A stretch of 64,000 bases of DNA from Clostridiales bacterium (lineage in GTDB: Bacteria; Bacillota; Clostridia; Oscillospirales; Acutalibacteraceae). The DNA lies in the NCBI GenBank assembly GCA_012839185.1, contig DUNU01000015.1:1-64000 (forward strand), read 5' to 3'. Positions within the stretch are counted from its first letter, which is position 1; each line of letters starts with the position of its first letter. The position numbers were made by a program, and so were the translations under genes. Shown piece after piece: positions 17,796 to 24,709 of this stretch. Under the pieces are notes generated by a model. It did no database searches, was not told where the DNA came from, and saw nothing but the letters and a program-made list of their open reading frames with translations.

Positions 17796-17880
17796 AAACT
17801 TTGGGCTGTAAGTGATTTGCATAGTCCATTAATGGCAACTGAATAGTCTTTATTAACAGGAAAAATCGAAATTAAAGAAA

Positions 17881-17906
17881 AAAGGATTGCTTGGCAGTCC
17901 TTTTTC
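17881..17906. terminator. Terminator between the SDR gene and the tRNA-Leu array
   Basis: GGATTGC-ttg-GCAGTCC is followed by TTTTTC on the plus strand and has a matching T-run on the minus strand. On the minus strand it is the last terminator copy of the tRNA-Leu array; on the plus strand it can end SDR transcription. Nothing else was recognised in 17796-17880. Confidence 0.7.
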
Positions 17907-17912
17907 TTATGC

Positions 17913-18340
17913 TGCCGGCGGTGGGACTCGAATGCTGACGCATTCGCTATCCTATTTATAACGCAACTTGCTCCTCCTTCGGAGTACCGCTCGTTATGCG
18001 TATTGGGTTCTCGTCCCACATTTACAAAGATAAAGAAAAAAGGATTGCTGAAACAATCCTTGTCTTTTATGGTGCCGGCGGTGGGACTCGAATGCTGACG
18101 CATTCGCTATCCTATTTATAACGCAACTCGCTCCTCCTTCGGAGTACCGCTCGTTATGCGTATTGGGTTCTCGTCCCACGTTTACAAAGATAAAGAAAAA
18201 AAGGATTGATGTAACAACCCTTATCTCTTTTGGTGCCGGCGGTGGGACTCGAATGCTGACGCATTCGCTATCTTATTTATAACGCAACTCGCTCCTCCTT
18301 CGGAGTACCGCTCGTTATGCGTATTGGGTTCTCGTCCCAC
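17913..18340 (-). repeat. Tandem array of three tRNA-Leu 3'-end repeat units
   Basis: Minus-strand units run 18340-18231, 18179-18070 and 18019-17913 (110, 110 and 107 bases, period 160-161). Each opens with GTGGGACGAGAACCCA, 14 of 16 matching the reverse complement of the tRNA-Leu T-arm. Next comes ATACGCAT, a hairpin-forming stretch (CTCC-gaa-GGAG), and GCGTTATAAATAGGAT (TAAGAT in the first unit). A second hairpin CGAATGC-gtca-GCATTCG merges into the tRNA-Leu 3' end TTCGAGTCCCACCGCCGGCA. CCA is present in the first two units and lost in the third. The opening GTGGGAC can pair with GTCCCAC at the end, closing the unit. Each unit is followed by a copy of the tRNA's terminator. Small reading frames here are artefacts of the repeat. 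Confidence 0.92.
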
Positions 18341-18353
18341 TTTTACAAAGATA

Positions 18354-18380
18354 AAGAAAAAAGGATTGATGTAACAACCC
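18354..18380 (-). terminator. Terminator of tRNA-Leu
   Basis: On the minus strand GGGTTG (18380-18375) pairs with CAATCC (18368-18363), followed by a T-run. Similar copies follow each array unit (about 18183-18220, 18040-18060 and 17881-17906). Confidence 0.75.
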
Positions 18381-18390
18381 TTATCTCTTT

Positions 18391-18477
18391 TGGTGCCGGC
18401 GGTGGGACTCGAACCCACACGGTATTGCTACCAACGGATTTTGAGTCCGTCAAGTCTGCCAATTCCATCACGCCGGC
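18391..18477 (-). tRNA. tRNA-Leu (CAA anticodon), CCA encoded
   Basis: Read on the minus strand from 18477. Acceptor GCCGGCG pairs with CGCCGGC, discriminator A, then CCA. Anticodon stem ACGGA/TCCGT closes the loop CTCAAAA, giving CAA (Leu). A long variable arm typical of Leu tRNAs is present. T-arm TGTGGGTTCGAGTCCCAC. The tandem array lies directly behind it. Confidence 0.97.
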
Positions 18478-24170: not shown

Positions 24171-24245
24171 TGGGGTGTAGCCAAGCGGTAAGGCAACGGA
24201 CTTTGACTCCGTCAGTCGTGCGTTCGAATCGCGCCATCCCAGCCA
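24171..24245 (+). tRNA. tRNA-Gln (TTG anticodon), CCA encoded
   Basis: Acceptor TGGGGTG pairs with CATCCCA, discriminator G, then CCA. Anticodon stem ACGGA/TCCGT closes the loop CTTTGAC, giving TTG (Gln). T-arm GTGCGTTCGAATCGCGC. A tandem array of 3'-end copies lies behind it. Confidence 0.97.
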
Positions 24246-24253
24246 AGAGAAAG

Positions 24254-24287
24254 TACCATAGCTAAATAACAGCTATGGTATTTTTTT
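24254..24287 (+). terminator. Terminator of tRNA-Gln
   Basis: TACCATAGCT (24254-24263) pairs with AGCTATGGTA (24271-24280), followed by seven T. Near-identical copies follow array units 1 and 2 (about 24408-24441 and 24564-24597). Confidence 0.9.
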
Positions 24288-24293
24288 CTGTAA

Positions 24294-24709
24294 CGCGATT
24301 CGAACGCATACGCATCTTTTTTCGACTTTAGGCGAAAAAAGGCGTTATAAATAGGATTACTGCCGAAGGCGATGCCTTCGGGTCGCGCCATCTCAGCCAA
24401 GAGAAAGTACCATAGCAAAATATAGAGCTATGGTATTTTTTGTTCTGTTTCGCGATTCGAACGCATACGCATCTTCTTTCGCTCTAGGCGAAAAAAGGCG
24501 TTATAAATAGGATTACTGCCGAAGGCGATGCCTTCGGGTCGCGCCATCCCAGCCAAGAGAAAGTACCATAGCCAAATATAGAGCTATGGTATTTTTTGTT
24601 CTGTTCCGCGATTCGAACGCATACGCATCTTCTTTCGCTTTAGGCGAAAAAAGGCGTTATAAATAGGATTATTGCCGAAGGCATTGCCTTCGGGTCGTGT
24701 CATCTCAGC
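24294..24709 (+). repeat. Tandem array of three tRNA-Gln 3'-end repeat units
   Basis: Units run 24294-24399, 24451-24555 and 24607-24709 (103-106 bases, period 156-157). Each opens with CGCGATTCGAACGCA, an exact reverse complement of the tRNA-Gln T-arm. Then come ATACGCAT, a hairpin (TTCGC/GCGAA) and GCGTTATAAATAGGAT. A second hairpin CCGAAGGC-gat-GCCTTCGG runs into the tRNA-Gln 3' end, TCGCGCCATCCCAGCCA in unit 2, one mismatch in unit 1. The third unit ends TCGTGTCATCTCAGC and has lost CCA. Units 1 and 2 are followed by near-identical copies of the tRNA terminator. The opening CGCGA can pair with TCGCG at the end. No credible protein frame is present. Confidence 0.92.

Follow-up and report, generated by a model that had tools for sequence, protein, structure and literature searches.

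Short tRNA-derived repeat units behind tRNA genes of a Clostridiales bacterium as candidate integrative mini-elements

The tRNA-Leu(CAA) locus and its tandem array

The window analysed here is a stretch of 64,000 nucleotides (positions 1 to 64,000 of contig DUNU01000015.1) from a Clostridiales bacterium. ARAGORN and Rfam (RF00005, 50.2 bits) both find an intact tRNA-Leu(CAA) gene with an encoded CCA end, followed on the same strand by three tandem units (Table 1). The units start at positions 18340, 18179 and 18019, with spacings of 161 and 160, and Tandem Repeats Finder reports the array with a score of 933, a period of 160, 3.4 copies and 94% matches. The three-unit array of period 160-161 that had been noticed behind tRNA-Leu from the sequence is therefore real. 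As had also been noticed, all three units open with an inverted tRNA-Leu T-arm, GTGGGACGAGAACCCA, identical at 14 of 16 positions to the reverse complement of the host T-arm. The closing copy of the tRNA 3' half, GTCCCACCGCCGGCACCA, agrees exactly with the tRNA in units 1 and 2, as expected, and departs from it in unit 3 by a single change (GCA for CCA). The terminators had been given as GGATTG/CAATCC, which is correct for the stem after unit 2. The stem is GGGTTG/CAATCC after the tRNA and after unit 1, and GGACTG..CAATCC after unit 3. The proposed 7-bp pairing of GTGGGAC with GTCCCAC is present, and this helix runs on through a tandem G-A/A-G internal loop to GAA/TTC, reaching 10 bp.

Table 1. 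Features of the tRNA-Leu(CAA) array and the position of its sister array in the window
Feature	Position	Strand	Remark
Host tRNA-Leu(CAA)	18391..18477	-	Intact, with CCA
Terminator 3' of tRNA-Leu(CAA)	18361..18382	-	AAGGGTTG..CAATCCTT and T-run; same as the terminator after unit 1
Unit 1, inverted T-arm	18325..18340	-	GTGGGACGAGAACCCA
Unit 1, conserved core	18274..18323	-	TACGCAT-(P2 hairpin)-GCGTTATAAATA
Unit 1, copy of tRNA 3' half	18231..18253	-	T-loop (TTC) through CCA
Terminator 3' of unit 1	18201..18222	-	
Unit 2, inverted T-arm	18164..18179	-	
Unit 2, conserved core	18113..18162	-	
Unit 2, copy of tRNA 3' half	18070..18092	-	Through CCA
Terminator 3' of unit 2	18040..18061	-	
Unit 3, inverted T-arm	18004..18019	-	
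Unit 3, conserved core	17953..18002	-	
Unit 3, last copy of tRNA 3' half	17910..17932	-	GCA in place of CCA; interpreted as the original end, displaced
Distal terminator	17878..17901	-	Unlike the others; GGACTGCCAAGCAATCC and T-run
tRNA-Gln(TTG) and sister array	24171..24709	+	Three units with the same core as the Leu(CAA) array

The original prediction likened this array to a second one behind tRNA-Gln, in design and in strand, and called the two independent. The design and the orientation relative to the tRNA do agree, on opposite strands of the window. The arrays are not independent, because the same core, TACGCAT..GCGTTATAAATARGA (also written TACGCAT-hairpin-GCGTTAYAAATARGA), is present in both. 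Within arrays, the units are 92-95% alike.

Cores, host-matched ends and distribution of the units

This core occurs 11 times in the 1.93-Mb genome, every time behind a tRNA gene: Leu(CAA) and Gln(TTG) with three copies each, Thr(GGT) and Leu(TAA) with two each and Leu(TAG) with one. A covariance model (R1) finds exactly 11 hits in the genome, with E-values of at most 1.4e-21. The cores are more alike than the tRNAs that precede them. Identity is 87% for the Leu(CAA) and Thr cores against 66% for their tRNAs, 80% against 70% for Gln and Leu(TAA), and 83% against 74% for Leu(TAA) and Leu(TAG). The cores have therefore moved between tRNA genes. The exact core has no match in 149 other sampled genomes of the family, and among the matches listed from phage and plasmid collections there is only tRNA. 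Ten hits to the exact core pattern in public genome and viral contigs have no tRNA gene close by and were judged to be chance. A scan of the tRNA genes of this genome also found units with other cores behind Gly(GCC) (two units), Ser(GGA), Ser(GCT) and Gln(CTG). About a quarter of its tRNA genes bear a unit or a remnant. A second model (R2), built from the type-II cores, was dominated by one hairpin and was left out of the searches.

We surveyed 152 tRNA genes of this genome and three relatives, using 404 mismatched-tRNA pairs as controls. An inverted T-arm with a score of at least 10 was found behind 18 of the 152 genes, and a direct copy with a score of at least 16 behind 20 of them; none of the 404 controls reached either threshold. 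A chance origin of the design is thereby excluded. Most of the stronger inverted arms are found 38-65 nt 3' of the CCA, at about the end of the terminator, and their match is specific to the host over 9 to 21 nt, as with GTGGAGATAAGGGGAATCGAA behind tRNA-Ala (21/21). The left junction ends at GAA, the complement of the T-loop TTC, in nearly all units across the genomes. The 3'-half copy begins in or near this same T-loop, in some units several bases into the loop or the stem. In one relative, a single core, GAAGGCGACCGTGCC, is common to the Ala, Pro and Arg tRNA genes. The distribution is patchy, and the occupied tRNAs vary from genome to genome, including in a species of the same genus.

A strict design pattern matched this genome only and proved too strict. 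Relaxed, and searched in 245 genomes of the class, it found true units at tRNA-Thr and tRNA-Leu genes in two additional families and, within the home family, behind tRNA-Leu(GAG) in a different genus, the real units being separated from chance hits in coding sequence by their tRNA context. Beyond its own family, the design is present in no fewer than two families of the class, and related cores occur in other genera. Relaxed-pattern hits that have no tRNA gene look like coding sequence, with the exception of one possible orphan unit (L316).

One hairpin, ACAGTCCGGTGGACTGT, was dropped as a defining mark of the units, as it also occurs in unrelated intergenic and prophage repeats. Dispersed intergenic repeats of about 250 bp in relatives (L203-L222, for example L204) contain it, and one genome (G199) has about 40 hits to the hairpin. 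Since it is found in dispersed repeats, prophage repeats and tRNA units alike, it is a module common to several repeat families. Two hairpins of the Gut-1 RNA type (RF01706; L277:788-864 and 881-965), one above the gathering score, lie just 3' of a tRNA-Ala unit, and other units of the genome concerned are followed by similar strings of hairpins.

Fold of the units and their possible origin

The original prediction would have fallen had the tRNA genes of related genomes lacked homologous arrays and the units lacked a conserved fold, and both do exist. The 24 units examined fold far better than their shuffled sequences (mean z -3.9). Compensatory changes keep both P1 and P2 paired, as a covariation check on the fold had called for. 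In P2, three pairs have both sides changed between the Leu and Thr units, and 97.7% of cells are paired in the structure as given, compared with 27-44% once it is slid. In P1, both sides are changed in 6 of 10 pairs, which follows partly from its tRNA origin. In 17 of the 24 units, folding is slightly better for the tRNA-sense strand than for the complementary one (p=0.012, the units not being independent). A fold conserved on one strand is compatible with either an RNA or an intermediate of single-stranded DNA.

The arrays are also polar. The last 3'-half copy is mutated in four of the five multi-unit arrays of this genome (1, 5, 1 and 3 changes), the Thr array having a last copy that shows no decay, and the interior copies carry 0 or 1 changes. 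Beyond the last copy, the terminator or flank is usually unlike the interior ones. For Leu(TAA), the flanks are CACTCGTC..GACGAGTG in the interior and GCATTC..GAATGC at the distal end; for Gln(TTG), they are CATAGC..GCTATG in the interior and unrelated at the distal end. In known tRNA-integrating elements, the tRNA is rebuilt by the element and the original end is displaced. The mutated last copy with its differing flank repeats this pattern and follows attL/attR logic, and it is what one would expect if integration at the T-loop displaced the original end.

Several readings of these features can be weighed. In one, each unit is a structured small RNA whose 3' end resembles that of a tRNA; read-through transcription from the tRNA promoter would produce it, and it would act on the host tRNA as a decoy for tRNA enzymes, as a T-arm antisense or as a regulator. 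This reading agrees with the conserved three-helix fold and its compensatory pairs, with the slight advantage of the tRNA-sense strand, on which the tandem G-A pairs are retained, and with an inverted arm that matches the host. However, same-strand folding would serve a single-stranded DNA intermediate equally well, and the occupied tRNAs differ between relatives. The CCA-ended RNA of about 110 nt that had been implied is unsupported: the Leu(CAA) array has no sigma-70-like promoter site on either strand, the units lie between terminators on both sides, CCA or acceptor bases are lost from the last copies in four of five arrays, and no Rfam family fits (in the window, tRNA alone reached the gathering score, and no unit of the relatives was matched at that score). 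We regard a functional RNA as rather unlikely. An insertion is favoured over a resident RNA gene because cores have moved, the occupied tRNAs differ between genomes and the arrays are polar.

It is less likely again that the units are by-products of replication. Palindromic T-arm and terminator hairpins would provoke template switching and so copy the tRNA 3' half both inverted and direct, unequal exchange would then produce the tandem array, and no dedicated element would be needed. This accounts directly for a host-matched inverted arm that ends at the T-loop and for its variable length (9 to 21 nt), and the likeness of units within an array is as expected after duplication. It leaves unexplained a discrete core that is common to unrelated tRNA genes and absent elsewhere in the genome, as well as the related cores of other genera. 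REP/BIME-like palindromes mobilised by a Y1 (RAYT/IS200) transposase, or insertions of reverse-transcribed cDNA, would give short, hairpin-rich, non-coding units; the ACAGTCCGGTGGACTGT hairpin recurs in other dispersed repeats of relatives, and the left junction, at the T-loop, resembles the end of a primer. However, searches that were positive in control genomes found neither Y1_Tnp (PF01797) nor RVT_1 (PF00078) in this genome, which is 98% complete. Their absence is evidence against the REP/RAYT and retro-type mechanisms, which we hold to be very improbable, although such an enzyme may since have been lost.

We favour, with moderate confidence, the reading of the units as non-coding, non-autonomous integrative mini-elements of about 160 bp that target the T-loop of tRNA genes. 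The mechanism that seems most likely, to a similarly moderate degree, is a site-specific recombinase acting in trans that joins the element at the T-loop with the help of a folded strand. Each element would bring along a terminator and a copy of the 3' half of the host tRNA. On joining at the T-loop (GG^TTCRA), the copy would rebuild the tRNA, and the original 3' half would be displaced to the far side, where it would decay. Repeated insertion beside the tRNA, or unequal exchange, would then give a tandem array. The strand of the unit folds with P1 (the inverted T-arm paired with the T-arm of the 3' half) enclosing P2 and P3, and P1 would display a double-stranded half T-arm as the putative recognition target of the recombinase. 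The anatomy, the junction at the T-loop, the cores common to different tRNAs, the patchy occurrence, the decayed last copy, the conserved fold and the lack of genes are seen in the data; we infer the recombinase, a folded strand as the intermediate, and the direction in which insertion takes place. No recombinase adjoins any array of this genome, where the neighbours are of housekeeping type only. The units contain no plausible gene and hence no integrase gene, no recombinase could be linked to them, and no autonomous relative turned up.

A simple integration model fails to explain why the inverted arm almost always matches the current host after transfer of the core. Template switching explains the host match directly but not the shared cores, and the two processes may work together. 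Alternatively, the inverted T-arm could be a guide, complementary to the T-loop, on a folded single strand. Insertion would then be guided by base pairing and the guide rewritten for each new tRNA, making these units a new class of mobile nucleic acid that rebuilds each tRNA it enters. We consider this guide reading doubtful. If it is true, an element that rebuilds every tRNA entered could occupy many of the tRNA genes in a genome without doing harm.

Comparison with known systems sets the mini-element reading in context. tRNA-gene integrative elements (prophages with tyrosine integrases, ICEs and genomic islands) likewise duplicate the tRNA 3' end around the insertion, leave the tRNA intact, have a junction within the tRNA and leave a displaced distal copy; the duplicate 3' end and the decaying displaced end with its own flank are both found here, and a carried integrase is not. 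In contrast to them, the present units measure about 160 bp, are gene-less and tandem, join at the T-loop, contain a folded core as well as the host T-arm in inverted orientation, and lack an adjoining integrase in this genome. Integron cassette arrays (attC) are inserted in tandem at one fixed site and have inverted-repeat ends that pair in the folded strand and a G^TT-like junction. The units resemble them in these features, as far as the general arrangement of the inverted ends was compared, but their site is a tRNA T-arm, they have no cassette ORF and their core is branched. REP/BIME and other short palindromic repeats are also short, non-coding, hairpin-rich and multi-copy, whereas the units lie strictly behind tRNA genes with host-matched ends in a genome that has no Y1 transposase. 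MITEs are similarly non-autonomous and short with terminal inverted repeats, but the inverted ends of the units are tRNA-specific and locus-dependent, with a long 3'-half duplication in place of a short target-site duplication. No earlier description of such units was found in the openly licensed literature. The recurrence of this design at many other tRNA genes in related bacteria points to a family of mobile elements, not described before, that have no genes, insert at the T-loop and leave the tRNA intact. If their mobility is confirmed, the units would count as integrative elements of very small size without genes, and their host-matched inverted ends would represent a form of target recognition unseen in the usual tRNA-targeting islands.

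Variant arrangements

At tRNA-Gly(CCC), two tRNA 5' halves are broken exactly in the T-loop (GCGGGTT/X/CGATTCCCGTC) upstream of the intact gene, and this locus shows an X element inserted in the T-loop itself. The interrupting core is of type II with a period of 205, and the arrangement is the mirror image of the downstream arrays (L112:1320-1810; G000:C8:75820-76300). An intron in the tRNA was ruled out here, as the interrupted copies have no acceptor 3' strand. The unit behind Ser(GGA) (L099, L105; G000:C16:40500-42300) bears an inverted T-arm that belongs to Ser(GCT), its neighbour. It is the sole unit with the inverted arm of another tRNA, a trace of transfer between the two genes. A near-perfect inverted T-arm lies 54 nt 3' of tRNA-Val(GAC) (L076; G000:C14:13365) with no 3'-half copy, and is a remnant or a half-unit. 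One core type (L117, L118, L154, L175) contains a k-turn-like motif, GCGG-YACA-GA-GCAACAG / CUGUUGU-GA-CCGC, that is kept in several tRNAs and genomes.

In some prophage contigs, an ORF assigned by eye from its translation lies directly upstream of a tRNA 3' fragment that is followed by a unit. The ORF is integrase-like in L165/L181 (L165:7251-8800), L156 and L179, and serine-recombinase-like in L175. The unit of L165 appears to be a neighbour and not the phage's own site, because the tRNA fragment extends into the anticodon arm. In another genome, tRNA-Leu(TAA) and its unit are doubled as one block with a period of 315 (L318, L327; G243:C5:56511-56931). Such arrays could break assemblies at tRNA genes, and some unit hairpins do sit at contig ends.
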